DNA of 64,000 nucleotides from Mycobacterium vicinigordonae (GTDB taxonomy: Bacteria > Actinomycetota > Actinomycetes > Mycobacteriales > Mycobacteriaceae): assembly GCF_013466425.1 (NCBI RefSeq), contig NZ_CP059165.1, forward strand, positions 3,100,001 to 3,164,000, given 5' to 3'. The position numbers were made by a program, and so were the translations under genes. The notes beneath the pieces were generated by a model. That model was not told the DNA's origin. It ran no database searches and saw only the letters and a list, made by a program, of their open reading frames with translations. Positions 9,486 through 35,217 of this stretch are shown here, in pieces (positions within the stretch are counted from its first letter, which is position 1; each line of letters starts with the position of its first letter).

Positions 9486-9549
9486 GTAGACACTTTAGTG
9501 TCGGGTGGGGCCGATGTGACAGATCTTCGCGATCTTCGAGTGTCGGGGC

Positions 9550-11106
9550 CTAGGTCCGACTGGGCAGCTTCATCACCGTTCGCACGATCGGCAGCAGCGA
9601 CTTCTGCCATAGGGTCTTGGGCAGGCCGAACGGCGGGTCGAGGTTGAACACCCGCGCGGTCGCAATCGTCTGCGCCTCGGTGTATTTCAGCAGTCCCTCG
9701 GCGCCGTGCCGGCGACCCACACCCGAGATACCCATGCCACCCATCGGCGCGCTCAGGCTGCCCCAGGCGAAGGCGTAGCCCTCGTCCACGTTCACAGTGC
9801 CCGAACGCAACCGGGCGGCGATCTGCTGTCCGTGGGCGGGGGAGTCGGCCCAGACGCTGGCGTTCAAGCCGTATTCGGTGTCGTTCGCCTTCTCGACGGC
9901 CTCGTCCACGTCGCCGACCGGGTAGATGGAGACCAGTGGGCCGAATGTCTCGTGGGCCGCACACTCCATTTCCGGTGTGACGTCGGTCAGCACGGTCGGC
10001 TCATAGAACAGGGGTCCGATGTCAGGCCGGGCCTTGCCGCCCGCAATCACCTTGGCGCCCTTAGCTTTTGCGTCATCAACGTGAGCCGACACCGTCTTGA
10101 GTTGACCCTCCGAGATCAGGCTGCCCATGTCGACGGAGAAGTCGTAACCGGTGCCCAGCTTCATATTGCGCACGGCCGCACCGAATTTCTGAGCGAATTC
10201 GTCGGCGATGTCTTTCTCGACGTAGATCCGCTCGATGGAAATACACAGCTGGCCCGCATTCGAGAAGCAGGCCCGGGTGGCGGCCTTGGCCACTTTGTCC
10301 AGGTTGGCACCTCGCGTCACGATCATCGCGTTCTTGCCACCGAGCTCGGCTGAGAACCCGATCAGCCGGCGACCCGCCTGCTCGGCGAGATGGCTGCCGG
10401 TCTCGGAGGACCCGGTGAACATCAAATAGTCGCAGTTCTCGGTGATTGCCGTGCCCACCACCGAGCCCGGCCCGGGGACAACCGCGTACAGTGCCCGCGA
10501 CAGGCCGGCCTGGTAAAGCAGCTCGGCACAGGCCAGCGCACAGTACGGCGTCTGGCTGTCCGGTTTGAGCACCACCGCGTTGCCCGCCAGCAGCGCCGGA
10601 ACCGAGTCCGACGCGGTGAGGGTCATCGGATAGTTCCACGGCGAGATCACGCCTACCACGCCCTTGGGCTGGTAGCAGACGGTGGTCTTGCCGATCGCGG
10701 GCAGCAGCGACTGCACCCTACGGGGCTTCAACAGCCCGGCAGTCACGCGCACGTAGTAGTTCGCGTTCGCCATCAGGTCGACGATCTCCTCCTGTGCCGC
10801 CCACCGAGCCTTGCCCGCCTCGGCCTGCAGCAGGTCCATCAGGAATTCGCGGTTGGCGACCACCAGGTCGCGGTAGCGGCGGATGACGTCGATACGCTCA
10901 CCCACCGGCCGGGCTGCCCAATCTGCCTGCGCTGCACGGGCTTTAGCAAAGGCGTCCTCGACATCGGCGGCCGTGCCGACCGGGATGGTGGTCAGCGGCT
11001 TGCCGGTGAAGACCTCGTCGATGGTCCTGGTCGGGCGCGCGTCCAGGTCGCCGATCGCCGCGAGCCGGCGCAGGCGGTCGAAAACATCGGCTGACGGTGC
11101 GGGCAT
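9550..11106 (-). CDS. gabD2: succinate-semialdehyde dehydrogenase GabD2
   Basis: A 518-residue aldehyde dehydrogenase that oxidises succinic semialdehyde to succinate with NADP, feeding the TCA cycle variant of mycobacteria. It follows M. tuberculosis GabD2 (Rv1731) almost residue for residue by memory: MPAPSADVFDRLRRLAAI, GVVGVISPWNYPMTL, FSAELGGKNAMIV with the catalytic glutamate, SNAGQLCISIERIYVEKDI with the catalytic cysteine, and the terminal KSLLPIVRTVMKLP. The start is set at the ATG at 11106, which has GGGAGG 6-11 bases upstream; 13 further in-frame codons upstream are not conserved. It appears monocistronic. Confidence 0.95.
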   Translation of the reverse strand: MPAPSADVFDRLRRLAAIGDLDARPTRTIDEVFTGKPLTTIPVGTAADVEDAFAKARAAQADWAARPVGERIDVIRRYRDLVVANREFLMDLLQAEAGKARWAAQEEIVDLMANANYYVRVTAGLLKPRRVQSLLPAIGKTTVCYQPKGVVGVISPWNYPMTLTASDSVPALLAGNAVVLKPDSQTPYCALACAELLYQAGLSRALYAVVPGPGSVVGTAITENCDYLMFTGSSETGSHLAEQAGRRLIGFSAELGGKNAMIVTRGANLDKVAKAATRACFSNAGQLCISIERIYVEKDIADEFAQKFGAAVRNMKLGTGYDFSVDMGSLISEGQLKTVSAHVDDAKAKGAKVIAGGKARPDIGPLFYEPTVLTDVTPEMECAAHETFGPLVSIYPVGDVDEAVEKANDTEYGLNASVWADSPAHGQQIAARLRSGTVNVDEGYAFAWGSLSAPMGGMGISGVGRRHGAEGLLKYTEAQTIATARVFNLDPPFGLPKTLWQKSLLPIVRTVMKLPSRT

Positions 11107-11204: not shown

Positions 11205-11988
11205 TCGCTGATAGCTGAGATACGTTGCGCAACTTCGCCATAACGCTCGATTCGGTCGGGGGCGCCAAATGCGTTGCACAACACGAGGCGGGACGTGACG
11301 GCCCCGGTACTTGGCCAAGAGCGCTTCGGCCACGCCGTCCCACGTCGATTCGGTAGCAAACGCCGCAACGTGTTCATCGGTGATCTCCGCTGCCATTCCC
11401 GCGCATTCCCGCGACAACACCGGCTTTCTGCTTTGCGCGCAACCGTGCCATGGTGCCCTCGAATCCGGCCTCGTCGAGGATGAACGCATAGGTCGAGGAT
11501 GAACGCATAGTTGGGCGTGCTGGCGCAGAAACTGATGCTTGCCCGCACTAATTCTCGCTCGTTGCGGCGCTCCTCCTCGGTGTCGCCGACGATCGTCATG
11601 ATTGGCACGATGACCGCAACATCGGCGAGGAGGCACTTTGCCCGCATTCCCGCAGCCGGGGCCCGGGTGTTCGAACCTCCACGCCGTAGCGTCGCACCAC
11701 GTGGGTACGCACCTGGGTGCCCAACCCGCGCCGGATATTCCCGTTCGACGCTCTTGCAGTTCCCACGCCGCGGCCGCTGTGACGAACGGCCTCCCGCGGA
11801 GAGACGACCGCGACCCCCATCGACAGCTGTAGCCCGGGGGCGGCCTGGGGCGCGATGGCGGCATTGAGGTATGTCGTGCGGCCGGTCTCGGTGAACAGCA
11901 GGCCGCTGAACCCGGCCGCCCGCGTGCGCCGGGCCGTGCCTGTGATCTGCGCCAACGGTTGGCGAATCGTCACCGCGTCGACCTGCAC
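11205..11988 (-). pseudogene. decayed F420-dependent LLM-class oxidoreductase
   Basis: A recognisable luciferase-like F420-dependent oxidoreductase scattered over three minus-strand frames. The N-terminus starts at a GTG (11988) as VQVDAVTIRQPLAQITGTA, followed by GFSGLLFTETGRTTYLNAA and RRGLGTQVRTHVVRRYGVE. The middle of the barrel (roughly 100 residues) is missing. The frame then resumes as VAVIVPIMTIVGDTEEERR, shifts at an exact 19-bp duplication after TPNYAFILD, continues as GMAAEITDEHVAAFATEST in another frame, and ends as RIERYGEVAQRISA. Intact homologues have about 330 residues. It lies between gabD2 and the osmolyte operon. Several independent lesions make sequencing error an unlikely cause. 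Confidence 0.85.
11473..11510. repeat. perfect 19-bp tandem duplication
   Basis: GTCGAGGATGAACGCATAG occurs at 11473-11491 and immediately again at 11492-11510. It lies inside the decayed LLM oxidoreductase, and because 19 is not a multiple of three it shifts the reading frame. Identical copies point to recent slippage. Confidence 0.95.
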
Positions 11989-12070
11989 AGTCGAACCGGA
12001 CAGCGGGTCAATGACCGGCCGAGTGCTGCCCGCTCTGCGCTCGCTGACGCGGCCGGTTAAGGTCGAAGAG

Positions 12071-13876
12071 ATGTGTGGAGCCACCGGTGAGGTGCGACTC
12101 GATGGCCGAGTGCCTGACGTAGGGGCAGTTGCCGCGATGGCCGCCGTGATGGCGCCGCGAGGTCCCGACGGCGCAGGGGTTTGGTCCCAGGGCCGGGTGG
12201 CCCTGGGTCATCGTCGCCTCAAAATCATCGACCTGACCGAGGCCGGAGCCCAGCCGATGGTTGACGCGGACCTGGGCCTGGCCACCGCCTGGAACGGCTG
12301 CATCTACAACTACCAGGAACTGCGCCGCGAACTCGAGGGCCACGGTTACCGGTTCTTCTCACACAGCGACACCGAAGTCCTGCTCAAGGCCTACCACCGC
12401 TGGGGCGACGACTTCGTTGCGCACCTGCACGGCATGTTCGCGTTCGCCATCGCCGAACGCGACAGCGGGCGAGTCCTGCTAGGCCGCGACCGCCTGGGCA
12501 TCAAGCCGCTCTACGTCACCGAGGACAGCCACCGGATCCGCTTCGCCTCGACCCTGCCGGCGTTGCTGGCTGGTGGCGGCGTCGACACCCGCATCGACCA
12601 TGTCGCTCTGCACCACTACATGACCTTCCACTCCGTGGTGCCCGCACCGCTGACCATCCTGCGCGGCGTGCGGAAGATCCCGCCGGGGTCGCTGCTTGCC
12701 ATCGAACCCGACGGCAAGCGCACCGCCACCATCTACTGGACGCCGGACTTCACCCGCCAGGACCGCCACGCCGACTGGTCGGAGACCGATTGGGAAGATG
12801 CCGTGCTCGCCGCGCTGCGCACCGCGGTCAAACGGCGACTGGTCGCCGACGTCCCGGTCGGTTGTCTGCTCTCGGGCGGAGTCGACTCCAGCCTGATCGT
12901 CGGGCTCCTCGCCGAAGCCGGCCAACACGGCCTTTCGACGTTCTCCATCGGCTTCGAGTCGGTGGGCGGCGTCGAGGGCGACGAGTTCCGCTATTCCGAC
13001 ATCATCGCCAAGTGGTTCGGCACCGACCATCACCAGATCCGCATCGGAACAGACCGGATGCTGCCCGCACTCGACGACGCGATCGGGGCGATGAGCGAGC
13101 CGATGGTCAGCCATGACTGTGTGGCCTTCTACCTCCTCAGTCAGGAGGTGTCGCGGCACGTCAAGGTCGTGCAGTCCGGCCAGGGTGCCGACGAGGTGTT
13201 TGCCGGATACCACTGGTACCCGCCGATGGGGGCGCCAGAGGCGAGCAGCCTGCCGGGAGCTGTGGCGGCATATCGCGCCGCATTCTTCGACCGGGACGTC
13301 CCGGGTCTCAAGACCCTGGTGGCGGCCGAGAACGTCGCCGCGGACGATCCCAGCGAACGATTCGTCAGCGAGCATTTCGCGCGCGCCAACGCGGCCACCG
13401 GCATCGACCGTGCGCTGCGCCTCGACACGACCGTGATGTTGGTTGATGACCCGGTCAAGCGGGTCGACAACATGACCATGGCCTGGGGGCTGGAGGGCCG
13501 GGTGCCGTTCCTGGACCACGAGCTGGTGGAACTGGCCGCAACCTGCCCACCGGAACTCAAGATCGCCCACGAGGGCAAGGGAGTGCTCAAGCAAGCCGCC
13601 CGCCGGGTGATCCCCGCTGAGGTCATCGACCGGCCCAAAGGATACTTCCCGGTGCCCGCGCTGACCCATTTGGAGGGCCCGTATCTGGACATGGTCCGGG
13701 ACGCCCTGTACGCGCCGGTGGCCAAGGAGCGCGGACTGTTCCGCTCCGAAGCTGTGGAGGCGTTGCTCGCAGACCCAAACCGCAGACTGACCCCGCTGCG
13801 CGGCAACGAGCTCTGGCAGGTAGCGCTACTGGAGATGTGGCTGCAGAAGCACGGTGTCACAGGGGCCGCCGGATGA
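12071..13876 (+). CDS. N-acetylglutaminylglutamine amidotransferase (asparagine synthetase family)
   Basis: A 601-residue enzyme expected to amidate N-acetylglutaminylglutamine to the osmolyte NAGGN. N-terminal class II glutamine amidotransferase: Cys2 nucleophile in MCGATGE, PRGPDGAGVW, LGHRRLKIIDL, ATAWNGCIYNYQELR. C-terminal ATP-pyrophosphatase: SGGVDSS at 268-274, QGADEVFAGYHWYP, and GLEGRVPFLDHELVELA. The partner gene downstream identifies it as the NAGGN-type branch rather than asparagine synthetase. The ATG at 12071 is required to place cysteine at position 2; upstream in-frame codons to 11855 are antisense to the pseudogene. Its stop overlaps the next start (ATGA). Confidence 0.9.
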   Translation: MCGATGEVRLDGRVPDVGAVAAMAAVMAPRGPDGAGVWSQGRVALGHRRLKIIDLTEAGAQPMVDADLGLATAWNGCIYNYQELRRELEGHGYRFFSHSDTEVLLKAYHRWGDDFVAHLHGMFAFAIAERDSGRVLLGRDRLGIKPLYVTEDSHRIRFASTLPALLAGGGVDTRIDHVALHHYMTFHSVVPAPLTILRGVRKIPPGSLLAIEPDGKRTATIYWTPDFTRQDRHADWSETDWEDAVLAALRTAVKRRLVADVPVGCLLSGGVDSSLIVGLLAEAGQHGLSTFSIGFESVGGVEGDEFRYSDIIAKWFGTDHHQIRIGTDRMLPALDDAIGAMSEPMVSHDCVAFYLLSQEVSRHVKVVQSGQGADEVFAGYHWYPPMGAPEASSLPGAVAAYRAAFFDRDVPGLKTLVAAENVAADDPSERFVSEHFARANAATGIDRALRLDTTVMLVDDPVKRVDNMTMAWGLEGRVPFLDHELVELAATCPPELKIAHEGKGVLKQAARRVIPAEVIDRPKGYFPVPALTHLEGPYLDMVRDALYAPVAKERGLFRSEAVEALLADPNRRLTPLRGNELWQVALLEMWLQKHGVTGAAG

Positions 13877-15669
13877 CGATTATCGGTCCGTCAGAGGATC
13901 ACCCGGAAGCGATCACGCTCGCTTTGCATGACGCGGCGCCACCTCAGCTGGCGGCGGCGATGGCCCATGATGTGGAACTCGAATTAGGTTGGGGCCGACT
14001 TATTTTCGGGCAGACATTCACCGATGCCGACACACTGGCCGAGTCGCTGCGGCGGGAGGCGCCCGGGCGCCGCGACATCTGCATCTACGCGCGCGAGTCC
14101 CACGTAGTGGTCGCCAAAGCTCCGGCCGAGCTGTTCATCGACCCCAGTCACACATACCGGTTGCGCTTTGCCAGCGCTTCGGACGAGAACGACGAGGAAC
14201 GCGCGGCACCCCCGCCGTACGTCACGGTGCGCACCCTCAACGACGTCGGCGACGCCGATGCGATGAATCGCGTCTACGTGCGGTGCGGAATGGTTCCGGC
14301 GCCGGTGGAGACGATCTGGCATAACCATCAACAGGTGGAGGCGGTTACCTACCTGCTGGCGGTGCGCAACGAGGACGGCGCCGTGGTAGGGACCGTCACC
14401 GGGATCGACCATGAACTGCTGTTCGCAGACCCCGAGCACGGGTCCAGCCTGTGGAGCCTGGCGGTGGATCCCGCCGCCGCTTTGCCCGGACTGGGCGCGG
14501 CGCTCACCCGCGCGCTGGCGCAGCACTTCCATGCCAAAGGCCGCGCGTACATGGATCTGTCTGTCGCGCACGACAATGCGGCCGCCACGGCGCTCTATGA
14601 AAAGCTGGGCTTTCGCCGCGTCCCGGTGCTGGCAATAAAGCGAAAGAACGCGATCAACGAGCCGCTATTCACCCCAGCGCCGGAAACAGTCGATGACCTC
14701 AACCCCTATGCCCGGATCATCGCCGACGAAGCGCTGCGCCGCGGAATCTGGGTGGAAGTACTCGACGCCGAGACGGGCGAGATCCGGCTTACGCACGGCG
14801 GCCGCACGGTCATCACTCGTGAGTCACTTTCGGAGTTCACCTCTGCGGTGGCAATGTGCCGTTGCGATGACAAGCGCCTGACCCGAAGGCTGGTGTCCGA
14901 AGCGGGTATCACCGTGCCCCGCGCTCGGCTGGCGACTTTCGACGACGCCGACTACACCTTCTTGACAGAAGTCGGCGAGGTCGTCGTCAAACCGACCCGC
15001 GGCGAGCAGGGCCACGGCATCACCGTCGGGGTCGCCGCCGAACGCGGTCCCGGTGAGTTAGCCGCCGCTCTGGCACGAGCGCGGGAGGTGTGCCCGGAAG
15101 TGCTGATCGAACAGCGGGTGCAGGGCCAGGATCTGCGCCTGGTGGTAATCGACGGCCGAGTGGTGGCCGCCGCGCTGCGGCTGCCACCAGAGGTCATCGG
15201 GACCGGTGACCACACCATCCGGGACCTGATCGCGGCCGAGAGCAGACGGCGTTCGGCGTCTACCGGAGGTGAGTCCCGCATCCCGCTCGACGATCTCACC
15301 GAGGCAACCGTCGCCGAATCTGGCTGGTCGCTGGACGATGTCTTGCCACAAGGAACGTGGCTGCGTGTGCGTCACACCGCGAACCTCCATCAGGGCGGCA
15401 CGATTCACGATGTCACCGCGCAGGTGAACCCGGAACTGTGCCGGGTCGCGGTGTCGGCGGCCGAGGCAATCGGCATTCCGGTGACCGGCATCGATCTCCT
15501 GGTGACCGACGTCACCGGTGAGGAGTACGCATTCATCGAAGCCAACGAGCGTCCGGGCCTTGCCAATCACGAACCGCAACCTACGGCAGCCGCTTTCATC
15601 GACTATCTGTTCCCTGGCCGGCCCGGTCAGCCGCCTGCCTGGACCCCGGAAGAGTCGCCGGCTTCCTGA
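13873..15669 (+). CDS. ngg: N-acetylglutaminylglutamine synthetase (GNAT + ATP-grasp fusion)
   Basis: A 598-residue two-domain enzyme that acetylates and joins two glutamines, the first step of NAGGN synthesis. The N-terminal GNAT acetyltransferase (about 120-260) has SSLWSLAVDPAAALPGLGAAL and DLSVAHDNAAATALYEKLGFRRV. The C-terminal ATP-grasp domain (about 320-590) resembles cyanophycin synthetase: DDKRLTRRLVSEAGITVP, VVVKPTRGEQGHGITVGV, LIEQRVQGQDLRLVVIDGRVVAA, and FIEANERPGLANHEP. The ATG at 13873 overlaps the amidotransferase stop by four bases, so the pair is translationally coupled. Known NAGGN loci often carry a third M42-family hydrolase gene, which is absent here. Confidence 0.9.
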   Translation: MTIIGPSEDHPEAITLALHDAAPPQLAAAMAHDVELELGWGRLIFGQTFTDADTLAESLRREAPGRRDICIYARESHVVVAKAPAELFIDPSHTYRLRFASASDENDEERAAPPPYVTVRTLNDVGDADAMNRVYVRCGMVPAPVETIWHNHQQVEAVTYLLAVRNEDGAVVGTVTGIDHELLFADPEHGSSLWSLAVDPAAALPGLGAALTRALAQHFHAKGRAYMDLSVAHDNAAATALYEKLGFRRVPVLAIKRKNAINEPLFTPAPETVDDLNPYARIIADEALRRGIWVEVLDAETGEIRLTHGGRTVITRESLSEFTSAVAMCRCDDKRLTRRLVSEAGITVPRARLATFDDADYTFLTEVGEVVVKPTRGEQGHGITVGVAAERGPGELAAALARAREVCPEVLIEQRVQGQDLRLVVIDGRVVAAALRLPPEVIGTGDHTIRDLIAAESRRRSASTGGESRIPLDDLTEATVAESGWSLDDVLPQGTWLRVRHTANLHQGGTIHDVTAQVNPELCRVAVSAAEAIGIPVTGIDLLVTDVTGEEYAFIEANERPGLANHEPQPTAAAFIDYLFPGRPGQPPAWTPEESPAS

Positions 15670-16120: not shown

Positions 16121-17446
16121 ATGCCCGCATCGACCGCGATCCGTTTCTTCCTCGAACTTGCCGTGATCTTGGCGGCGTGCCGAGGAGTGGGGCTGCTGGC
16201 GCAACGCGTCGGGCAACCCCAGGTTGTCGGTGAGATGATCGCCGGTGTCCTGCTTGGTCCCTCGCTGCTCGGCCACCTAGCCCCTGCCGTGCAACACCAG
16301 TTGTTTCCACCGCGGCAGTCCAACGTCGTGCTGTACACCCTGGCGCAGATCGGCCTCGTGCTGTACATGTTCCTGATCGGGCTCAACTTCGATGCCAACC
16401 TCATCAAACATCGGGTGGGCACCGCGGTCGTCGTCTCCTCGGCGGGCATCCTGGCCCCCCTTGGGCTGGGAGCACTGATCGCCGGGCCCTTGCTGTCCGG
16501 CGGGGTCTATTTCGACAGTCGCGTCACCCTGGTGATGGCGATGATGTTCCTGGGCGCGTCCATCGCGACCACGGCGTTCCCGATGCTAGCCCGGATTATC
16601 TACGAAAAGCGGCTCACCGGAACGCCTTTGGGCACGCTGGCGTTGGCATGTGGTGCAGCCGACGATGCGCTGTCCTGGTGCCTGCTGGCAATCGTGCTCG
16701 CGATCCACCGCGGCAGCCCTGTCACGGCCGCCACTGCGATAATCGGCGGCTTCCTGTACTGCCTGCTGGTGTTGACCATCGGCCGCAAGGCTTTGGCCGG
16801 TCTTGGTGGGATATCCGAACGCCGGCAGGCGATAACGCCACCGGTTTTCAGCGCCGTCCTCATCTTGCTGATGCTCTGCGCCTGGTTCAGCGATGTGATC
16901 GGTATCTACGCCATTTTCGGAGCATTCGTCCTCGGCGTCGCAATGCCGTCGGGCTACTTCGCGCAACGCCTCACCGACATGGTGGATCCGATGGTGACGA
17001 CGTTCCTGCTGCCGTTGTTCTTCGTTTATTCGGGGCTGAACACTGAGGTTGGGCTGCTGAACAGCCCGAAACTGTGGGCAGTGACGTTGGGCATCCTCGC
17101 GGTGGCAATCGCTGGCAAGGGAGTGGCGTGCGCGTTGGCTGCCCGGATTCGAAAGGTGCCGCTCCGCGAATCAATCGCCCTGGGATCGTTGATGAATGCT
17201 CGTGGTTTGATCGAACTCATTCTGCTCAACATTGGGCTTCAGGCTGGCATCATCACTCCCACTCTGTTCACGATCCTGGTGTTGGTGGCTATCGTCACGA
17301 CGCTGATGACCGTACCGACATTCGAACTCGTCTACGGGCGATACCTGATCGCCGGCTCGCCTGCCGCGTATGCAGATCCCAACCTACGCGAGGCAGCGAT
17401 TGCGAGAACAGAGGATGGCGACAAGCCTGGCGGGGTGGGTGTGTGA
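16121..17446 (+). CDS. Kef-type cation:proton antiporter (CPA2 family)
   Basis: A 441-residue inner-membrane protein with about 12 hydrophobic segments and no cytosolic TrkA-N domain. Landmarks: GQPQVVGEMIAGVLLGPSLLG, IGLVLYMFLIGLNFD, ALACGAADDALSWCLLAIVL with the paired acidic residues of the transport site, and MNARGLIELILLNIGL. Members exchange K+ or Na+ for protons. It begins about 450 bases after the NAGGN operon on the same strand and ends about 90 bases before the halogenase gene. A link to osmotic balance with NAGGN is plausible; equally it could belong to neither. The ATG at 16121 is the most upstream reasonable start. Confidence 0.88.
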   Translation: MPASTAIRFFLELAVILAACRGVGLLAQRVGQPQVVGEMIAGVLLGPSLLGHLAPAVQHQLFPPRQSNVVLYTLAQIGLVLYMFLIGLNFDANLIKHRVGTAVVVSSAGILAPLGLGALIAGPLLSGGVYFDSRVTLVMAMMFLGASIATTAFPMLARIIYEKRLTGTPLGTLALACGAADDALSWCLLAIVLAIHRGSPVTAATAIIGGFLYCLLVLTIGRKALAGLGGISERRQAITPPVFSAVLILLMLCAWFSDVIGIYAIFGAFVLGVAMPSGYFAQRLTDMVDPMVTTFLLPLFFVYSGLNTEVGLLNSPKLWAVTLGILAVAIAGKGVACALAARIRKVPLRESIALGSLMNARGLIELILLNIGLQAGIITPTLFTILVLVAIVTTLMTVPTFELVYGRYLIAGSPAAYADPNLREAAIARTEDGDKPGGVGV

Positions 17447-17477: not shown

Positions 17478-17497
17478 TTTCTTAAATATTAATTAAC
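17478..17497 (+). promoter_or_regulatory. AT-rich promoter-like stretch before the halogenase/PKS operon
   Basis: Twenty nearly all-A/T bases (TTTCTTAAATATTAATTAAC) stand out in GC-rich surroundings, 37 bases before the halogenase start. They include the palindromes AATATT and TTAATTAA. This is a likely promoter or regulator site for the biosynthetic operon. Confidence 0.45.
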
Positions 17498-17533
17498 TGT
17501 GGTAATCGGTCACATGTGCTGGGAGGGGATAGT

Positions 17534-19345
17534 GTGAATACGCGAGCGCACCTTTCGCAGTTGAGCCCACAGGCGCGGGCAGCTTTGGCGCAGCGGATCA
17601 AGGCGCAGCTGACGGATACCGCCGATGCTCCGGACACCACGGAGGTCTTTGCGCCCGCCCCCGACTGTGAGGTGGCCGTCATTGGCGGTGGCATCGCGGC
17701 TCTCACACTGGCGATGGAACTTCACATCGCCCGACCCGCAACACGGGTTCTGATTATCGAGCCGGTCGGGCACCCGGTGCCGGAGATCACCCACACTGTT
17801 GGCGAGTCGACGGTCGAGGTGTCGGCACAGTATCTGCGGGACCGCCTGGGATTGGCAGACCATCTGCAGGCCTCGCAGCTGCGCAAGATGGGGTTGCGGA
17901 TGTTCTTTTCGCACGACGCGAACGCCGACATCACCCAGCGAATGGAACTCGGCAATTCCAGGTACACACCGCAGGTAACCTTCCAGATCGACCGCGGCCG
18001 GCTGGAAAACGAACTCACCCGGCGCTGCCTGGCGGGCGGCGTCGAGATGGTCACGGGTCGGGTGAGATCCGTTGAATTTGGCGATGCGGGCGGGTATCAC
18101 ACCGTCTGCTACCAGAGCGGTGACACCACCAACACGCGGACAACGGCCCGCTGGGTGGTGGACGCATCGGGGCGCAACCGCGTGCTGGCTCGACAGCTGG
18201 GTCTCAAACGCACCACGGAGCATCACTGCAATGCCGTGTGGCTGCGCGTCGCAACTGAGATTGACATCGGGCGATGGAGCAATGACCCCAGCTGGCAAGA
18301 ACGCCTGACCGAAGGTGACCGCGCGATGTCCACCAATCATCTGATGGGGGAGGGGTATTGGGTGTGGCTCATCCGGCTCGCGTCTGGATCGACCAGCGTC
18401 GGCATAGTCGCCGACCCGGCGCTGCACGCGTTCGATAGCTACAACACGTTGGCCAAAGCCCAAGCCTGGCTGCACGAGCACGAGCCACAATGCGCCGCGG
18501 TGCTGGCTGAGCACGATCACCTGATCAAGGATTTCAGGGTGATGAAGCACTACAGTCATAGCTCTACAAAAGTCTATGACGGCCAGCAACGTTGGTGCCT
18601 GACCGGCGACTCGGGAATCTTCTTGGACCCGTTGTACTCTTCGGGACTGGATTTGATCGCCATCGGCAATGGCCTGATCACCGACATGATCACGCGCGAA
18701 CTGAGCGGAGAGAACATCGTCGCACGCGCCTCGATCAACGACTCGTTGTTTCGCTCGCTCACCGACATGTGGCTCAACATCTACTGCAACCAGTACCCGC
18801 TGATGGGCTCGCCGACCGTGATGTCGGCGAAGGTGATCTGGGACATCGCCTTCTACTGGGGATTTCTCGGGCTGTTCTACACCAACGACCGGTTCGCAGA
18901 TGTTGCCGACGATCCTTCCGTTGTGCCCCATCTGCAACGCATGATCGACCTCAGCAACCGCATGCAACAATTCTTCCGCGAATGGGGTGCGGTTGAGATA
19001 GATTGCATAGCAGGGCAATTCGTCGACTTGTTCTCGCCGCTCAACTTCATGGTGGCGCTGCACACCGCGATGATAGGAAGCTCCCCGGAGTTCGACAGGC
19101 AGTTCGACACCAACGACCGGACGCTGCGCCAAATCGCGGGCTATCTCGTCGAAATCGTGGTCGGCAAGGAAAGCAACCGCTTCTCCGAGGACAACGTCAT
19201 GCGGCAGGTGCAGGCGTGGCAACGAGACAAGTTCCTGCGCGAACTGCGCTCCATTTACCGGCACGACCAGGCGACGAGTCCAATCAGCGAGGGATGGATT
19301 CTGCGTTCTGGATCGACTCCGTTGGTGTCGGCGCCGACAAGGTGA
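17534..19345 (+). CDS. flavin-dependent halogenase-like oxidoreductase
   Basis: A 603-residue FAD enzyme. Residues 8-26 (SQLSPQARAALAQRIKAQL) look like the helical tail or linker found at NRPS/PKS module ends, suggesting docking to the PKS. FAD-binding GGGIAAL is at 51-57, GES at 90-92, and a lysine at 118 in LRKMGLRMFF sits where PrnA-type halogenases have the catalytic lysine (FKxxIKF). The family motif GWxWxIP appears as EGYWVWLIRL (about 273-282), with proline missing. GDSGIFLDPLYSSGLDL is the second FAD motif. It may chlorinate or brominate a carrier-bound polyketide, or be a hydroxylase. The GTG at 17534 follows GGGAGGGG by 6 bases. The PKS gene starts 43 bases downstream. Confidence 0.8.
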   Translation: MNTRAHLSQLSPQARAALAQRIKAQLTDTADAPDTTEVFAPAPDCEVAVIGGGIAALTLAMELHIARPATRVLIIEPVGHPVPEITHTVGESTVEVSAQYLRDRLGLADHLQASQLRKMGLRMFFSHDANADITQRMELGNSRYTPQVTFQIDRGRLENELTRRCLAGGVEMVTGRVRSVEFGDAGGYHTVCYQSGDTTNTRTTARWVVDASGRNRVLARQLGLKRTTEHHCNAVWLRVATEIDIGRWSNDPSWQERLTEGDRAMSTNHLMGEGYWVWLIRLASGSTSVGIVADPALHAFDSYNTLAKAQAWLHEHEPQCAAVLAEHDHLIKDFRVMKHYSHSSTKVYDGQQRWCLTGDSGIFLDPLYSSGLDLIAIGNGLITDMITRELSGENIVARASINDSLFRSLTDMWLNIYCNQYPLMGSPTVMSAKVIWDIAFYWGFLGLFYTNDRFADVADDPSVVPHLQRMIDLSNRMQQFFREWGAVEIDCIAGQFVDLFSPLNFMVALHTAMIGSSPEFDRQFDTNDRTLRQIAGYLVEIVVGKESNRFSEDNVMRQVQAWQRDKFLRELRSIYRHDQATSPISEGWILRSGSTPLVSAPTR

Positions 19346-19388
19346 GGCGCGCTGCTCTGCCGGTCACACCGGCTGTGAACTCAAAGGG

Positions 19389-22300
19389 ATGATGCACATG
19401 GAGCAGGGCGGTCGCGAGGCACTGGCGATTGTCGGAATTGGATGTCGCTTTCCGGGCGGCGCCCATTCCGTGGAGGCCTTCTGGAACTCACTATGCGGTG
19501 AAACCGACGCGACTTGCGTCGTTCCCGAAACACGCTGGGACGCTGGACGCTACTTCGATCCGAATCCGGCAAAAGTCGGGAAGATGGTTACCTTCCGAGG
19601 CGGGTTCCTCAATCAGATCGATCAATTCGACCCCCAATTCTTTGGAATTTCACCCCGCGAAGCCAATCTGCTGGATCCGCAACAACGGCTCCTACTGGAA
19701 ACCACCTGGGAGGCGCTGGAAGACGGCGGAATACCCGCAGACGCATTGGCGGGCACCGATGTTGGTGTGTTCGTCGGCGGATTCACCCTCGACTATCAAC
19801 TGCTGCAAAACCAGGGCCGCACCAGTCGCTACAGGTTGAAGACGCACTCCGCCACCGGAATGATGATGACAATGCTGGCCAACCGTATCTCGTTCACGTT
19901 CGACTTTCGCGGTCCCAGTATGACCGTCGATACGGCGTGCTCAAGTTCGCTCGTCGCGGTGCACCTTGCGGCGCAAAGCATCTGGAACGGTGAATGCCAC
20001 CTAGCGGTTGCCGGGGGAGTGAACATCATGATCGGGCCCAACACCGCCATCGCCGAGTCCAAGAGTGGATTTCTCAGCCCCGAGGGTCGCTGCAAGGCAT
20101 TCGACGTGTCAGCAGACGGTTACGCGCGGGGCGAAGGAGGCGCCGTCGTCGTCATCAAACCTCTCGGACGGGCACTGGCCGACGGCGACGAGATCTATGC
20201 GCAGATACTCGGTACCGCAGTCTCCCAGGACGGACGCACCGAAGGCATTACCGTGCCGAGTGAGGACGCGCAGCACGCGGCGATCAGTACGGCCCTTGCA
20301 CGGGCCGGGCTGTCTGCCAACGACATCGGATACGTGGAAGCGCACGGCACCGGGACCCCGGTTGGCGACCCGATTGAGTTGCGGGCGCTGGCCAACGCGC
20401 TCGCAGCAGACCGGCCGGAATCAGATCCGCTGCTAGTCGGTTCGGTCAAGGCGAACATCGGCCACCTCGAGGCGGCGGCGGGCGTCGCTGGGCTCATCAA
20501 GGCGGCTCTGGTGCTCAAACACGGATACGTTCCCGCGCAGCTGCATCTAAAAAATCCGTTGCGTACCACCAATATCGTTATTCCGCAAACCGGACGTCCC
20601 TTCGCCGAAGGCATTCGAAGGGTTGCCGGTGTCAACTCATTCGGCTTCGGCGGGACCAACGCGCACGTGGTGCTGGCACAGCCACCCACCCCGGTCGGCA
20701 ATGCAGACGGTACTCCGGGCCGACCCCTGGTCATCCTGCCGATCTCGGCGCGGTCAGGGGAGGCGCTGACGGAGACGGTCCAGCAACTCGCGTCGCACCT
20801 GGGCGAGCATCCCGACGTCACGCTCGCGGATCTCGGCTACACCCTGGGCCGGCGCCGTTCGCATCTGAACCATCGGCGGGCCATTGTCGCGGGTAGCCTC
20901 GACGAGGCGCGAGACCAACTTCGGGCCCTCGCCGAGGGTGGGCAGATCTCACCGTCCCGCCCGCATCCGGCTTCACCCAAGCTGGCCTTCGTCTGCAGCG
21001 GTATGGGGCCGCAGTGGTGGAAGATGTGCCGGGGGCTTCTCGACATCTATCCTGCATTTGCCGACAGCATTCAGCGCACCGACCGAGAGCTGTCCCGTTA
21101 CACCCACTGGTCGCTGCTCGATGAACTCCGAGCCGACGAAACCCGATCTCGGATGGCCGAAACCGAGGTCGCACAACCTGCCAATTTCGCCGTTCAAGTC
21201 GCGCTCGCGGCGCAACTTGCCCAGTTCGGGATCAGGCCGCACGCGGTGATCGGTCACAGCGCCGGGGAAGTGGCGGCTCATCACCTGGCCGGTCTACTCA
21301 CCTTCGAGCAAGCGGTTCAGGTGGTGTATCACCGAAGTCGCCTGCAGCAACAGACAAGTGGGTTGGGCCGCATGCTGGCCGTCGGCATCGGCGCCGATGC
21401 ACTCATGCAGAACCTCGATGACAAAGCATTCGACCAGATCGGGCGGCGGGTGTCCATCGCCGCGATCAACAGCCCCTCGGCGGTGACCCTGGCCGGCGAC
21501 AGCGATGTGCTCGAAGACATCGCCCGTCAGTTGGGCGAGGCGGAGATTTTCAACCGGTTCCTGACTGGGAAGGTGCCGTATCACACCCACTACATGGAAG
21601 CGGTGAAGGAGGATCTCTGCCGGTCGCTCGACGGGCTGTCGTCGGGCACCGCCGCCATTCCGCTGTACTCCACGGTCACTGGCGAACAGTTGGGCGGATA
21701 CACGGCCGGCGCCGCCTACTGGTGGCAGAACACTCGCGCCACAGTACTTTTCGAAGCAGCGGCGCGGCGGATGATCGAGGATGGATACGCCCACTTCGTC
21801 GAACTCGGCCCGCATCCCGTGCTGGCCCCGTCGATCATCGAGCTCGCGGGAACCCAAGAGGCCGAAAGGAACACCGAGGTCGTGGTGCTGCCGGCTCAGC
21901 GGCGCGACGACGACGACAGCCGCACATTGATGAACTGTGTGGGGGCGCTCTATTGTCATGGTCACCAAATCGACTGGGACACAATGTACCCGCGAGCTGG
22001 AGCACGACTGCTGAAGCTGCCGTCCTACCCGTGGCAATCGAAACGATTCTGGAACGAAACCCAGGAAGCCGCTGAGGAACTGCACTACCGCCCGGTGCAT
22101 CCGCTGCTGGGGCAACCGGTGAGCGCAGTGCATCCGACCTGGGAAGTCGAATTGAGCACCGCCGCAATGCCGTTCCTCGAGGATCATCAGGTGCAGGGCA
22201 GTATCCTGGTACCCGGTGCGGTGTTCGTCGAAATGGCGTTGGCGGCTGCCAAAGCGACGTACGGTTCGACCGACCACAGTGTCGACAACCTGGTACTGCA

Positions 22301-24920
22301 TCGCGCCCTCATCCTCGACGGAACCTGCGATCCGCTGCTGCGGACGACTCTTCACCAGGACACCGGTGCGCTGGAATTCGCAGCGTTCACCGCGACTGCC
22401 GACGGCGACCTCAACTGGACGATAACGGCGACCGCGGAATTAAACACGTTATCCAGGCCGATTCGCTGTACGGTGGACGACTCGCAACCCCTCGGCGCGA
22501 TCAGCGGTGCCGACTTCTACGCCCATACCCGCACAATCGGGTTCGGCTACGGTGACATGTTCCAAACCGTGCGTGAAATCACTGCCGGACACGGCTGGGC
22601 GGTGGCTCAGCTCGAGGTTCCCGAGCGGCTCGCGGCTGAACTCGGGGCACACCGATTTCACCCGGCGCTGATCGACGGCGCTTTTCAAACACTCTTCGGG
22701 GCAAGGCTTCTCGACCAGGACCAGGACCAGGAGACATATCTTCCTACTCGAATTCGGCGCAGTTCCATCTTCCATGCCCCCGACCCGAACATGATCGTGC
22801 GAGCGCGCGTGGTGTCGGCAACGAGAGAAGAGATCGAAAGCGACATCACCATTTCCAGCCAGGCGGGTAAGACGCTCGCCACCTTTGACGGCTTCACGGT
22901 CCGATCGCTGTCCGCTGCGTCGGGCATGTCATGGGATCAATTAGACAAGGGGCTCTACGAAGTCGTGTGGATCGCGGAACCCGCGAGGAATCAAGATCAG
23001 GTACCTGAAACGGCGTGCTCAGCCGATTCGTCCTGGCTGATTCTAGCAGACACCTCCGGTATCGGCGCAGCGGTCGCGGAGAGGCTGCGCCGATGCGGCC
23101 ACCGCGCCCACCTGGTTGAACACCAACCTGTCAATGCGCTCGCCGAGATCGACGGTGGCTACGCGCTGAACCCGCGGCAGGCCGAGCAGCTACGCCGACT
23201 GCTCGACCTCCACCTCGAGCGGGAACGCGGCCTCGCCGGTGTCGTTGATTGCTGGCCACTGGACATCACCTCCGACGATGCGACCGAAACAGCCCATCAC
23301 ATTGGCGTTTTCACGGTTCTGCGGCTGGTCAAGGCCTTCGCCGACAACGGTGCTGTGCGGCCCCGCCTGCACTTGATCACCGGGAACGCACAGCCGGCGC
23401 CCGGAACCGAATCGATCGTTGCCGATCAAGCCACCATCTGGGGGCTCGGCAGGGTCATCGGCCACCAAGAGTTTGTCGACTACTGGGGCGGGCTGATCGA
23501 CATCGAACCCGATGCGGACACCGCCGAGACGGCAGCGCAGATCTGCGAGCATGTTCTGGCCGGTCAGTCCGAAGACCAGATCGCGATCCGAAGCGGCCAG
23601 ACCTTCGTCGCTCGGTTGCGCCGCAGCGGTAACCTCACCAGGCCGTTTCCCACCAAACTCAGTCCGGACGCGACGTATGTCGTCACCGGTGGCTCCGGGG
23701 CCCTCGGCCGTATCGTCGCCGGCTATCTCGCCGAGCGTGGGGCGCGGCACATAGCGCTGTTGAGCCGAAGCAAGATACCGCAGCGAAGCCAATGGTCACG
23801 GCAAACGAAGGACGACCCGCACTGCGCCACCGTGGACGCGCTTCGAAGGATCGAACACCTCGGCGCGCGCATCACCACGGCCAGTGTCGATATCACCGAC
23901 GCCGACCAGGTGCGGGCCTGGGTGGACGATCACAACCGGGACGGGGGGCAGCCCGTTCGCGGTGTTGTGCACGCCGCGGGAACGGTCAATGACCAACTGC
24001 TGGTGAACATGAGCGAAGCTGACTTCGCCGCAGTACTGGCGGTGAAGACCACCGGCGCCCGGATCCTGCACGATGTATTCGGCGGACAGGAGCTGGAGTT
24101 CTTCGTCATGTTTGGCTCTGCGGGTTCGGTCATCGCCGCTCCCGGCCAAGGCAACTACGCCGCCGCCAACGCCTTCCTGGACGCATTCGCGCATTACCGG
24201 CATGCGCAGGGACTTCCGGCGCTAACCATCGGGTGGGGGCCGTGGTCGGTGGGCATGGTGGAGGAATTGAAGCTGGAGAAGCTTTACCGCCGGCGCGGAA
24301 TCGAACTCATCACCCCTGCGGCGGGCACCAGGATCCTCGACCGGCTCATCAACCAGAAGACAGCGAGTGTCGTCGCGATCAGTGCCGACTGGACGCTCGC
24401 CCGCCGGGCCGGGCTGAGCGGACAGCTGCCGCCGATGTTCAGCGAACTGGGCACCGCGGCGTTCTCGGCTGAATCAGATGCGGAAACCTCCATCCTGCAA
24501 GCACTCTCGCGGTGCGCGGAAGCTGAGCGGCAAGAAGTCGTCGCCAGCCATGTTCGTCGGATCCTCGGAGCTGTCTTTGAAGTCCCGGCCGCCGACATTG
24601 GGTCAGACGACATCCTCAACGACATCGGGATGGACTCGATGATGGCAATGGATTTCCGAACCCGGGTCAATGCGACGTTCGGAATTGACCTGCCGGTCCT
24701 GGAAATACTCCGTGGTGTCAGCGTCAGTTCCCTTGCGATGCAGATACTTTCGAGCCTGAACTTGGGGTGCGCCGAACTCCCAGTTGCTGAACGCTCGGAA
24801 TTCGCGGGCGACGATATCGACAGCATGATGGAGCAGCTGTCGAATATCGAGCTTCGAGAATTGCTGGCCGAACTGGAGAGCCTATCCGCCGAGCAGGACA
24901 CCGGAGGTGCTCAGCAGTGA
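19389..24920 (+). CDS. type I polyketide synthase, KS-AT-DH-KR-ACP, iterative type
   Basis: An 1843-residue single-module PKS. Ketosynthase (about 9-430): Cys184 in DTACSSS, His319 in EAHGTGT, His359 in GHLEAA. Acyltransferase (about 530-860): GHSAGE with Ser624, and PYHTHYME in place of the usual HAFH or YASH specificity motif, so the extender unit is unclear. Dehydratase (about 895-1180): DHQVQGSILVP with His933, Asp1096 in LIDGAFQ. Ketoreductase: GGSGALG at 1434, Ser1577, Tyr1590 in GQGNYAAAN. ACP: Ser1750 in GMDSMMAMD. There is no ER, methyltransferase or thioesterase. This order is that of partially reducing iterative PKSs. AAAGGG precedes the ATG at 19389 directly; ATG 19398 may be the true start. 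The stop overlaps the ABC gene. Confidence 0.93.
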   Translation: MMHMEQGGREALAIVGIGCRFPGGAHSVEAFWNSLCGETDATCVVPETRWDAGRYFDPNPAKVGKMVTFRGGFLNQIDQFDPQFFGISPREANLLDPQQRLLLETTWEALEDGGIPADALAGTDVGVFVGGFTLDYQLLQNQGRTSRYRLKTHSATGMMMTMLANRISFTFDFRGPSMTVDTACSSSLVAVHLAAQSIWNGECHLAVAGGVNIMIGPNTAIAESKSGFLSPEGRCKAFDVSADGYARGEGGAVVVIKPLGRALADGDEIYAQILGTAVSQDGRTEGITVPSEDAQHAAISTALARAGLSANDIGYVEAHGTGTPVGDPIELRALANALAADRPESDPLLVGSVKANIGHLEAAAGVAGLIKAALVLKHGYVPAQLHLKNPLRTTNIVIPQTGRPFAEGIRRVAGVNSFGFGGTNAHVVLAQPPTPVGNADGTPGRPLVILPISARSGEALTETVQQLASHLGEHPDVTLADLGYTLGRRRSHLNHRRAIVAGSLDEARDQLRALAEGGQISPSRPHPASPKLAFVCSGMGPQWWKMCRGLLDIYPAFADSIQRTDRELSRYTHWSLLDELRADETRSRMAETEVAQPANFAVQVALAAQLAQFGIRPHAVIGHSAGEVAAHHLAGLLTFEQAVQVVYHRSRLQQQTSGLGRMLAVGIGADALMQNLDDKAFDQIGRRVSIAAINSPSAVTLAGDSDVLEDIARQLGEAEIFNRFLTGKVPYHTHYMEAVKEDLCRSLDGLSSGTAAIPLYSTVTGEQLGGYTAGAAYWWQNTRATVLFEAAARRMIEDGYAHFVELGPHPVLAPSIIELAGTQEAERNTEVVVLPAQRRDDDDSRTLMNCVGALYCHGHQIDWDTMYPRAGARLLKLPSYPWQSKRFWNETQEAAEELHYRPVHPLLGQPVSAVHPTWEVELSTAAMPFLEDHQVQGSILVPGAVFVEMALAAAKATYGSTDHSVDNLVLHRALILDGTCDPLLRTTLHQDTGALEFAAFTATADGDLNWTITATAELNTLSRPIRCTVDDSQPLGAISGADFYAHTRTIGFGYGDMFQTVREITAGHGWAVAQLEVPERLAAELGAHRFHPALIDGAFQTLFGARLLDQDQDQETYLPTRIRRSSIFHAPDPNMIVRARVVSATREEIESDITISSQAGKTLATFDGFTVRSLSAASGMSWDQLDKGLYEVVWIAEPARNQDQVPETACSADSSWLILADTSGIGAAVAERLRRCGHRAHLVEHQPVNALAEIDGGYALNPRQAEQLRRLLDLHLERERGLAGVVDCWPLDITSDDATETAHHIGVFTVLRLVKAFADNGAVRPRLHLITGNAQPAPGTESIVADQATIWGLGRVIGHQEFVDYWGGLIDIEPDADTAETAAQICEHVLAGQSEDQIAIRSGQTFVARLRRSGNLTRPFPTKLSPDATYVVTGGSGALGRIVAGYLAERGARHIALLSRSKIPQRSQWSRQTKDDPHCATVDALRRIEHLGARITTASVDITDADQVRAWVDDHNRDGGQPVRGVVHAAGTVNDQLLVNMSEADFAAVLAVKTTGARILHDVFGGQELEFFVMFGSAGSVIAAPGQGNYAAANAFLDAFAHYRHAQGLPALTIGWGPWSVGMVEELKLEKLYRRRGIELITPAAGTRILDRLINQKTASVVAISADWTLARRAGLSGQLPPMFSELGTAAFSAESDAETSILQALSRCAEAERQEVVASHVRRILGAVFEVPAADIGSDDILNDIGMDSMMAMDFRTRVNATFGIDLPVLEILRGVSVSSLAMQILSSLNLGCAELPVAERSEFAGDDIDSMMEQLSNIELRELLAELESLSAEQDTGGAQQ

Positions 24921-25771
24921 GCATCGAGATGGATCAGCCCCCGGCGGTACATGTCCGGGGTTTATCCAAGGCATACGGGCGGACCCAGGCGGTGCGGGAG
25001 GTGGATCTCGACATCGGCCGCGGCGAGATCTTCGCGATTCTCGGCCCCAACGGGGCTGGCAAGTCGACAACCATCGAAATACTCGAAGGCCACCGTACCC
25101 GTGATGCCGGGCAGGTTCTGGTGCTGGGCGAAGACCCTGGAACTGCCGGGCGCAGCTGGCGAGCCCGGATCGGCATCGTGCTTCAGGAAGCTAGCGATGC
25201 CGGGATGCTCACAGCGGCGGAAACGGTGCAGATGTTCGCGAAATGCTATGGGACGGGCCGGGTTCCGGGCGAGGCCCTGGAGTTGGCCGGTCTCGGCGCG
25301 GTGGCCGGTAAGCGAGTGCGAGCGCTGTCCGGCGGGCAGCGCCGCCGACTGGACGTGGCTCTGGGTATCGTCGGTATGCCCGAGCTGCTGTTCCTGGACG
25401 AACCGACCACAGGTTTCGACCCGGAAGCGCGCCGCCAGTTCTGGGACCTCATCAGGTCGTTGGCGCGTGACGGCACCACTATCCTGCTCACCACCCATTA
25501 CCTGGAGGAAGCGGCGGTACTTGCCGATCGTGTCGCAGTCATTTCGGGTGGGCGTGTGGTGGCGGTGGACTCACCGGACAGACTGACCGAACACGTGAGT
25601 TCGGCGGCGACCGTACGGTGGACGGAGCGGGGCGAGGTCTTCGCGGTGGAGACGGACCGCCCGACCGACTTGATTAGGCAGCGATCCCAGGACGGCCGCG
25701 AACTGGCGCAGCTAACCGTCTCTCGTCCAACACTGGAGGACGCTTACCTGCAATTGATCGGCCGGGGATGA
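24917..25771 (+). CDS. ABC transporter ATP-binding protein, DrrA-like
   Basis: A 284-residue ATPase that powers export with the permease encoded next. Walker A GPNGAGKSTT is at about 44-53, signature LSGGQRRRLDVALGI at about 137-151, Walker B LLFLDEPTTGFDP at about 156-168, and the switch histidine in LLTTHYLEEA. The C-terminal tail (VRWTERGEVFAVETDRP..LEDAYLQLIG) is typical of the DrrA antibiotic/lipid exporter branch. The GTG at 24917 overlaps the PKS stop (GTGA), and its own stop overlaps the permease start (ATGA). This coupling implies that the transporter exports the PKS product or protects the cell from it. Confidence 0.92.
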   Translation: MSIEMDQPPAVHVRGLSKAYGRTQAVREVDLDIGRGEIFAILGPNGAGKSTTIEILEGHRTRDAGQVLVLGEDPGTAGRSWRARIGIVLQEASDAGMLTAAETVQMFAKCYGTGRVPGEALELAGLGAVAGKRVRALSGGQRRRLDVALGIVGMPELLFLDEPTTGFDPEARRQFWDLIRSLARDGTTILLTTHYLEEAAVLADRVAVISGGRVVAVDSPDRLTEHVSSAATVRWTERGEVFAVETDRPTDLIRQRSQDGRELAQLTVSRPTLEDAYLQLIGRG

Positions 25772-26625
25772 CGAACGCCGAGCACCTGGACAGCGACAAG
25801 CCGCCACGGCGCCGTGCGGCCGCGTCGGTGACACTGCCGTCCCCGCTGCGAATCGGATTATCTCGCGTGGGACCGGAATTGAAGATGTTCTACCGTCGCC
25901 CCGAGCAGGTCGGCCTGACCTTCTCCATGCCGGCGGTGATCTGCGTTCTGCTGGGCTCAATCTTCTCAAGCAAGCTGCCGGGAAGCGAAACCAGCACTGG
26001 CGCAGTGATAGCGGCCAGCATGCTCGCTTACGGCATACTCTCGACGTCGTTCATCAACCTCGGTATCAGCATTGCCGCCGATCGCGACAATGGTGCCCTG
26101 CGACGGCTTCGCGGAACACCGGCAACAGCCTCGTCGTATTTCATCGGCAAAATACTGCTGGTCGCGATCGCCAGCATTGCCGAAGCCGTGATCCTGCTAT
26201 CGGTGGGGGTGTCGATCTTCGACTTGCGCTTGCCCGACAGCGCTTTCGGCTGGTTCACGCTATGGTGGGTGTTTTCGCTCGGCATTGTCAGTTGTTCGTT
26301 ATTGGGCATCTTCATCAGTAATTTCGCCAGCAACGCGGTCTCCGCCGCCGTGATGACCAACGGCCCAGCCGTGGGCCTGCAATTCGTGTCCGGGACCTAC
26401 GTGCCGCTCATGGCGCTGCCGGCCTGGATGCTGACCATCGGTTCGCTATTTCCGGTCAAGTGGATGGCACAAGGATTTCGGTCAGTGTTGCTGCCGCCGC
26501 AAATGGTGGCCTTCGAACCAGCGGGAAGCTGGGAACTTTGGCGCATCTTCCTGATTCTGACCGCTTGGAGCGTCGGCGGCTTGATCGCGTGCCTAACGGT
26601 TTTCCGTTGGTCAGATCAGAGTTAG
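25768..26625 (+). CDS. ABC transporter permease, DrrB/ABC-2 type
   Basis: A 285-residue membrane protein of the ABC-2 family. After about 35 basic cytosolic residues and the amphipathic RVGPELKMFYRRPEQVG come six hydrophobic segments, among them SMPAVICVLLGSIF, AVIAASMLAYGILSTSFINL, ILLVAIASIAEAVILLSVGV, WWVFSLGIVSCSLLGIF and WSVGGLIACLTVF. The ABC-2 signature-like GPAVGLQFVSGTYVPLMALPAWM lies before the last segment. It pairs with the ATPase gene that it overlaps by four bases. It is the last gene of the halogenase-PKS operon; the next gene is convergent, with only 15 bases between stops. Confidence 0.9.
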   Translation: MTNAEHLDSDKPPRRRAAASVTLPSPLRIGLSRVGPELKMFYRRPEQVGLTFSMPAVICVLLGSIFSSKLPGSETSTGAVIAASMLAYGILSTSFINLGISIAADRDNGALRRLRGTPATASSYFIGKILLVAIASIAEAVILLSVGVSIFDLRLPDSAFGWFTLWWVFSLGIVSCSLLGIFISNFASNAVSAAVMTNGPAVGLQFVSGTYVPLMALPAWMLTIGSLFPVKWMAQGFRSVLLPPQMVAFEPAGSWELWRIFLILTAWSVGGLIACLTVFRWSDQS

Positions 26626-35099: not shown

Positions 35100-35217
35100 G
35101 AGGCGCATTCAGCGAGCGTGCGAACCATCGGCTCATTTCCAAGATGCGGTCCACCAGGCGGAGCCAAGCCGGGCATCTCATCTCCTCAATTAGCTGCTCT
35201 AGCCGTCCACGAGAAAG

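Follow-up and report, generated by a model that had tools for sequence, protein, structure and literature searches.

Polycyclic tetramate macrolactam (PTM, also PoTeM) synthases have the module order ketosynthase (KS)–acyltransferase (AT)–dehydratase (DH)–ketoreductase (KR)–acyl carrier protein (ACP), and an iodinated heptaene occurs in enediyne biosynthesis. The iterative polyketide synthases (iPKSs) of PTM pathways produce polyene chains, as described in an excerpt of PMC11724479. In the genome of Mycobacterium vicinigordonae (one contig, 6.27 Mb), we analyzed a stretch of 64,000 nucleotides (bases 3,100,001–3,164,000; hereafter, the window) containing one small biosynthetic cluster of five genes, which encode a cation/proton antiporter, a flavin-dependent halogenase-like enzyme (the flavoenzyme), a polyketide synthase (PKS) with this same domain order, an ABC ATPase and an ABC-2 permease. 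Our leading, still tentative, explanation is that the cluster serves to make an exported, probably halogenated polyene. The genes, domains and motifs on which the argument draws are located in the window as follows:

16121–17446, plus strand: CPA2-type monovalent cation/proton antiporter, 441 aa (PF00999; TIGR00932 below its cut-off)
17516–19345, plus strand: FAD-dependent halogenase-like enzyme, 609 aa (GTG at 17516) or 603 aa (GTG at 17534) (profiles, fold, motifs)
17540–17623, plus strand: N-terminal helix pair of the flavoenzyme (LSQLSPQARAALAQRI...), putative docking element (structure model; helix pattern)
17885–17887, plus strand: Lys118 of the 603-aa form, within RKMGLR, probable counterpart of the halogenase catalytic lysine (alignment)
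18359–18376, plus strand: WVWLIR at the WxWxIP position, Pro replaced by Arg (alignment)
18620–18646, plus strand: FLDPLYSSG, the Fx.Px.Sx.G tunnel motif (alignment; motif as given in an excerpt of PMC8407142)
19389–24920, plus strand: one-module type I PKS, 1843 aa, KS-AT-DH-KR-ACP (Pfam)
19419–20681, plus strand: KS domain (DTACSSS, EAHGTGT, NIGHLEAA) (Pfam, motifs, KS tree)
20988–21929, plus strand: AT domain (GHSAGE; VPYHTH at the specificity position) (Pfam, motifs)
22098–22922, plus strand: DH domain (HQVQGSILVP; HPALIDGAFQ) (Pfam, motifs)
23670–24248, plus strand: KR domain (Pfam, motifs)
24552–24737, plus strand: ACP domain (GMDSMMAM) (Pfam, motifs)
24813–24917, plus strand: C-terminal tail of the PKS, LSxxELRxLLAELE-like stretch, putative docking partner (tail pattern)
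24917–25771, plus strand: DrrA-like ABC ATPase, 284 aa (TIGR01188, PF00005)
25768–26625, plus strand: DrrB-like ABC-2 permease, 285 aa (TIGR01247, PF01061)

A preliminary description of this DNA had reported a GTG-started flavin enzyme, an 1843-residue KS-AT-DH-KR-ACP synthase 43 bases after its stop, and two ABC exporter genes with four-base overlaps (ATPase with PKS, permease with ATPase), all of which we found as stated, the domain order by Pfam. Position 17478, where that description began, is intergenic and differs in frame from the flavoenzyme gene, whose alternative in-frame start at 17534 has an AGGGGA stretch ahead of it. The four genes that it had joined into one operon do belong together, but their partner just upstream, the antiporter gene, which ends 69 bases before the first possible flavoenzyme GTG, had been overlooked.

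A flavoenzyme-based scan of public genomes returned 121 stretches encoding a relative, of which the best 80 were kept as loci; the named relatives are mostly from Mycobacterium and Mycolicibacterium. In 65 of the 67 mycobacterial-type loci (L009–L081 minus six clearly non-mycobacterial ones; two of the 67 sit in metagenome-assembled genomes (MAGs) bearing the labels Ilumatobacteraceae and Acidobacteria), the PKS follows the flavoenzyme, the other two being cut by contig ends, and the ABC permease is present in 62, the misses again falling on loci cut by contig ends. As tallied from the matches listed, 105 of 396 Mycobacterium genomes encode the flavoenzyme at 62% identity or more, and 21 further ones have weaker matches only (23–37%); the PKS stretch around the DH domain occurs in an identical set of 105 genomes. 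Because the PKS follows the flavoenzyme so regularly and both genes are found in the very same genomes, the order of the flavoenzyme, PKS and exporter genes is far beyond chance. The unit of antiporter, flavoenzyme, PKS and exporter is conserved in mycobacteria, and on this presence map roughly one in four of the genomes sampled from the genus has it. Of 301 genomes sampled from the family, 16 have a match at 1e-60, 11 of them in the same genus and five in other genera, three of the latter five genomes carrying a form of 51–60% identity in two or three copies. Compared with its nearest relative, the flavoenzyme is under purifying selection (dN 0.09, dS 0.60).

Beyond the unit's own genes, no family is common to most loci. 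Antisense open reading frames aside, the next one is a short-chain dehydrogenase/reductase family in 17 loci, rejected as a partner because of its scattered position. A fusion of flavoenzyme and PKS, considered on account of long open frames (~2,430–2,720 aa) in some genomes, was also dropped, because a stop lies between the genes in L095, L105 and L108; in the plus-strand loci examined, a stop likewise separates the two genes, which share a frame.

The predicted structure of the flavoenzyme has the halogenase fold, and the best matches in both profile and structure searches are halogenases (ChlB4 and PltA among them), ahead of hydroxylases; identity to the group of PltA, ChlB4, Mpy16, Bmp2, PltM, CtcP, CmlS and CndH is 16–23%. 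Lys118, assigned through sequence alignment and not through distances in the structure model, is conserved in 31 of 31 aligned relatives, with its pattern present in 69 of 73 loci, and its K-x-G context is the same as that of PltM Lys87 (decoded from a mutagenesis primer printed in PMC6424973) and as in the alignments of Mpy16, ChlB4 and 3nix. The tunnel motif of the window protein recurs as FLDPLYS[SP]G in 70 of 73 loci; the strict form is kept in 27 of the 31 relatives, with the first Phe changed to Ser in four. The GxGxxG position reads GGGIAA; at the last residue, 21 of these relatives have Gly and the other 10 Ala. Profile, fold and the lysine and tunnel motifs point to a halogenase-like enzyme with a predicted halogenating activity, a prediction as tentative as the overall explanation to which it belongs.

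The rival that survives best takes the flavoenzyme for a halogenase-fold oxygenase (hydroxylase or epoxidase) and the product for an oxidized polyene devoid of halogen, with the arginine of WVWLIR letting the chain come near the flavin. Three observations speak for it and weigh against halogenation: the exact WxWxIP motif is replaced by WVWLIR; Pfam ranks lycopene cyclase first and FAD_binding_3 third; and the model of QhpG, which an excerpt of PMC7876137 describes as a hydroxylase with CmlS as its nearest structural match, scores equal to that of CmlS. We nevertheless consider this rival unlikely, if deserving serious attention, as a hydroxylase needs neither the invariant lysine nor the tunnel motif, and the best profile and structural matches lie with halogenases. 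Moreover, WxWxIP or its variants are missing from a number of known flavin-dependent halogenases, as noted in an excerpt of PMC8407142. Among the 31 relatives, this position reads IR in 16 and IP in 15; since IP and IR paralogues adjoin each other in some clusters, the family offers a natural test of the role of the WxWxIP proline. The earlier call of a halogenase therefore holds in terms of profile and fold, though not for the exact motif.

In the PKS, Pfam delimits KS (residues 11–387), AT (534–847), DH (904–1178), KR (1428–1620) and ACP (1722–1783), and its scan finds neither an enoylreductase (ER) nor a thioesterase domain. An alignment of 67 PKSs, including the window's own and four non-mycobacterial ones, retains the KS Cys motif in 66 and, in all 67, both KS His motifs together with the AT serine and KR motifs; the ACP serine motif is kept in 64, and the DH motifs HxxxGxxxxP and Asp in 60 and 66, respectively. 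A tree of 42 KS domains places the window KS inside a clade of the cluster (support 100/97), whose sister is an iPKS-nonribosomal peptide synthetase (NRPS) of Tsukamurella (97/92), followed by two Streptomyces rows and one Paenibacillus row (joint support 80/71). L110 (Eleftheria) was left out of this tree, having no KS row, and L127, L129, L130 and one Paenibacillus row form long branches. All 17 KS domains of the same genome that the tree includes, taken together and not sorted one by one into lipid and other PKSs, are placed elsewhere, so the PKS stays outside the clades of the other PKSs of its genome. The view of it as iterative in type, put forward earlier, is supported.

Several observations connect this PKS with the PTM type. 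Of the two Streptomyces rows in the tree, one (L135) comes from a stretch that encodes a sterol desaturase, a PKS-NRPS, two FAD oxidoreductases and a P450, a layout that we read as PTM type, and the other (L109) is unannotated with gene sizes like those of L135. PTM-like loci also rank among the best plasmid matches that cover almost all of the PKS, at 38–40% identity (H1, H2, H4), and a PTM-like stretch of Eleftheria terrae is its second-best plasmid match. The AT specificity motif VPYHS/T is likewise common to PTM-type iPKSs and the window PKS. In the tree, the window KS groups, with modest support, with iterative PTM-type polyene synthases, and because of that grouping a conjugated polyene appears likelier as the product than a small aromatic acid.

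The preliminary description had allowed for small aromatic as well as short polyene acids, and it is the polyene half of this expectation that gains. In the aromatic alternative, the PKS makes an acid of the 6-methylsalicylate or naphthoate type, which the flavoenzyme chlorinates on a carrier protein in the manner of ChlB4. The domain order is indeed that of 6-methylsalicylic acid synthases, the usual substrates of such halogenases are electron-rich aromatic rings, and ChlB4, one of the best flavoenzyme matches along with PltA, is postulated to act on 6-methylsalicylate (in an excerpt of PMC8407142). Against this stand the KS grouping and the resemblance of the AT motif to that of PTM-type iPKSs, which leave the alternative rather improbable; it is weakened and not closed, because the KS tree, which holds no characterized aromatic iPKS, is not a full test.

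The exporter pair exceeds the Pfam cut-offs of ABC_tran (PF00005, 92.6 bits) and ABC2_membrane (PF01061, 81.8 bits), while staying below those of the curated DrrA model (TIGR01188, 236.3 bits vs. 312.45) and DrrB model (TIGR01247, 42 bits vs. 223.05); the ABC exporter proposed earlier is supported, as an ABC-2 transporter of the DrrAB type. This homology, together with the name "mycocerosic acid synthase" given to some database members, invites the idea of a cell-envelope lipid as the product of the unit, in line with other mycobacterial PKSs linked to DrrAB, with the flavoenzyme merely modifying an acyl chain. We judge it very improbable, given that the PKS, unlike the lipid PKSs of the mycocerosic acid synthase kind, lacks an ER domain, that its KS lies outside the clades of the other PKSs of the genome, and that no acyltransferase, FadD or MmpL is found among the gene families common to at least six loci.

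The antiporter matches PF00999 (Na_H_Exchanger) at 200.9 bits (cut-off 26.2), with 135.7 bits against TIGR00932 (cut-off 238.3). Each of the 56 mycobacterial-type loci whose flanks are long enough on either side has an antiporter: upstream on the same strand in 29, upstream on the opposite strand in five and downstream of the permease in 22. The upstream antiporters are ~69–82% like that of the window; the downstream ones represent a second type, 40–44% like the window's and 74–78% like a Rhodococcus one. Directly upstream of the antiporter gene, on the same strand, lies an N-acetylglutaminylglutamine amidotransferase/synthetase pair of an osmolyte pathway (11855–15669; TIGR03104, 1015 bits; TIGR03103, 856 bits). 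That the antiporter belongs to these adjacent genes and neighbors the flavoenzyme by chance is scarcely credible and was rejected, as the osmolyte genes occur at none of the other loci (tblastn, flanks up to 10 kb), where an antiporter is constant and in 22 cases of a different type and position; from this locus comparison, the antiporter is therefore the true partner of the unit and the osmolyte genes are not. Elsewhere in the window, a PPE-PPW family protein is encoded at 33624–35108 on the minus strand.

Under the preferred explanation of an exported, probably halogenated polyene, the PKS would act iteratively, as its single module and KS relatives suggest: the AT would load malonyl units, the KR and DH would work in each round with no ER to follow, and a linear conjugated polyene would build up on the ACP. 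The N-terminal helices of the flavoenzyme may dock onto the C-terminal tail of the PKS and so keep the two proteins together. We infer this docking from the conservation of both elements. The helices (residues 3–9 and 12–30 in the structure model, block pLDDT 57–80) fit a looser pattern in 63 of the 65 mycobacterial-type loci tested, with a helix seen by eye in the two misses (L019, L022); this pattern replaced a strict one that matched just 22 of 71 loci. The tail pattern is present in 57 of the 67 aligned PKSs, and there are 10 misses, three of them non-mycobacterial (L068, L074, L076); most of the eight inspected are close variants. Motifs and fold further suggest that the reduced flavin would make hypohalous acid, which would travel through the tunnel to Lys118 and halogenate the ACP-bound chain. 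The DrrAB-like exporter would then move the product across the membrane, and the antiporter, judging by its constant presence, may guard the cation/proton balance against a membrane-active compound.

No gene of the unit accounts for chain release from the PKS, and a search with one thioesterase query (E 0.001) turned up no homologue in the vicinity of the mycobacterial loci. A bolder version of the scheme, which we hold to be a long shot, would make the flavoenzyme itself the chain terminator: docked on the PKS tail, it would halogenate the polyene and thereby trigger decarboxylative off-loading, yielding an exported terminal halopolyene. It would explain both the missing thioesterase and the retention of the flavoenzyme in every cluster. 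According to an excerpt of PMC8407142, Bmp5 carries out decarboxylative bromination, and bromination by Bmp2 triggers release, in that case by a thioesterase.

Relatives outside Mycobacterium are more elaborate. The PKS is combined with a thioesterase and two or three flavoenzymes at loci of Rhodococcus (L064), Pseudonocardiaceae (L068) and Tsukamurella (L074) and in a MAG (L076). One to four DUF1702 genes accompany L064 (one copy at 8956–9960), L068, Lentzea L075 and Nocardia L077, and neither L074 nor L076 showed any. DUF1702, paired with "enediyne biosynthesis protein" in a figure legend of PMC7692728 (seen as an excerpt), was found in all three non-Mycobacterium genomes with the 51–60% form (G561, G624, G643), and the search for it was positive in three of three relatives already established as having the larger form. 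It occurs in one of the 396 Mycobacterium genomes, which has no flavoenzyme and is thus outside the 105; its search in the genome of the window gave no matches, with the controls silent as well. The extra flavoenzymes, thioesterase and DUF1702 of some relatives were not found alongside the mycobacterial form, which thus looks reduced, or the other forms expanded. The Rhodococcus DUF1702 model is all helical (pLDDT 82.6), with no PDB match at E ≤0.001. The single Mycobacterium copy (L138 9272–10261, G358) lies beside KS III-like, FAD-hydroxylase and AMP-ligase genes, with no modular PKS among eight proteins scanned in 20 kb. In a planctomycete MAG (L088 251–11759), a two-KS PKS is followed by two flavoenzymes of the same family and an HlyD-type gene; this locus, with the PKS placed first, was the only one flagged in the frame check for fusion. 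With it, the flavoenzyme-PKS link extends past actinobacteria.

To our knowledge, this type of cluster had not been known from Mycobacterium. Its parts are of known kinds, and their combination (a PTM-clade polyene iPKS, a WxWxIR halogenase-like enzyme, an antiporter and an ABC exporter, with no further common gene) was not found described: among the open-licence papers listed, none does so by its title or the start of its abstract, which is weak evidence of absence, as the subscription literature lay largely outside this scope, and the excerpt of PMC8269204 mentions neither Mycobacterium nor Mycolicibacterium. Many environmental and opportunistic mycobacteria carry this compact gene set, which has the look of machinery for producing a chain-like, pigment-type molecule, altering it with an enzyme of a halogen-adding type and exporting it; should a halogenated polyene prove to be the product, mycobacteria, including some opportunists, would export a new class of small molecules.

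As for known systems, some relatives of the cluster (L064, L068, L075, L077) have DUF1702 genes in common with the enediyne PKS cassette. The mycobacterial form differs from the cassette in that no such partner was found with it and in the domain order, KS-AT-DH-KR-ACP vs. KS/AT/KR/DH in an excerpt of PMC7692728. RerA/RerB of Rhodococcus erythropolis PR4 (PMC11563203) similarly combine an iterative PKS from a close mycobacterial relative with polyenes up to C22, for which a yellow color is reported, but their order is KS-AT-ACP-ACP-KR-DH, enediyne/PUFA (polyunsaturated fatty acid)-like, with a partner protein bearing phosphopantetheinyl transferase and thioesterase, and they are not of the window PKS family. 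Relative to the halogenases of carrier-protein-bound and phenolic substrates listed above, the flavoenzyme is distinguished by low identity, by WxWxIR and by the helix pair ahead of the fold. The sister KS comes from a Tsukamurella tyrosinosolvens plasmid (L111 10001–22086) that encodes an iPKS and, downstream, an ABC ATPase-permease pair, as in the window, but also an NRPS. The genes annotated in the part examined do not include a halogenase, and the plasmid PKS was matched in two pieces, only the later of which is annotated. The PTM iPKS-NRPSs, such as IkaA, resemble the window PKS in module, KS position and AT motif. The window unit has no NRPS, phytoene-dehydrogenase-type cyclases or sterol-desaturase-type hydroxylase (NRPS and oxidative cyclases are also absent among the families common to many loci); in their place, it combines the PTM-like module with a halogenase-like enzyme, an antiporter and an ABC exporter.

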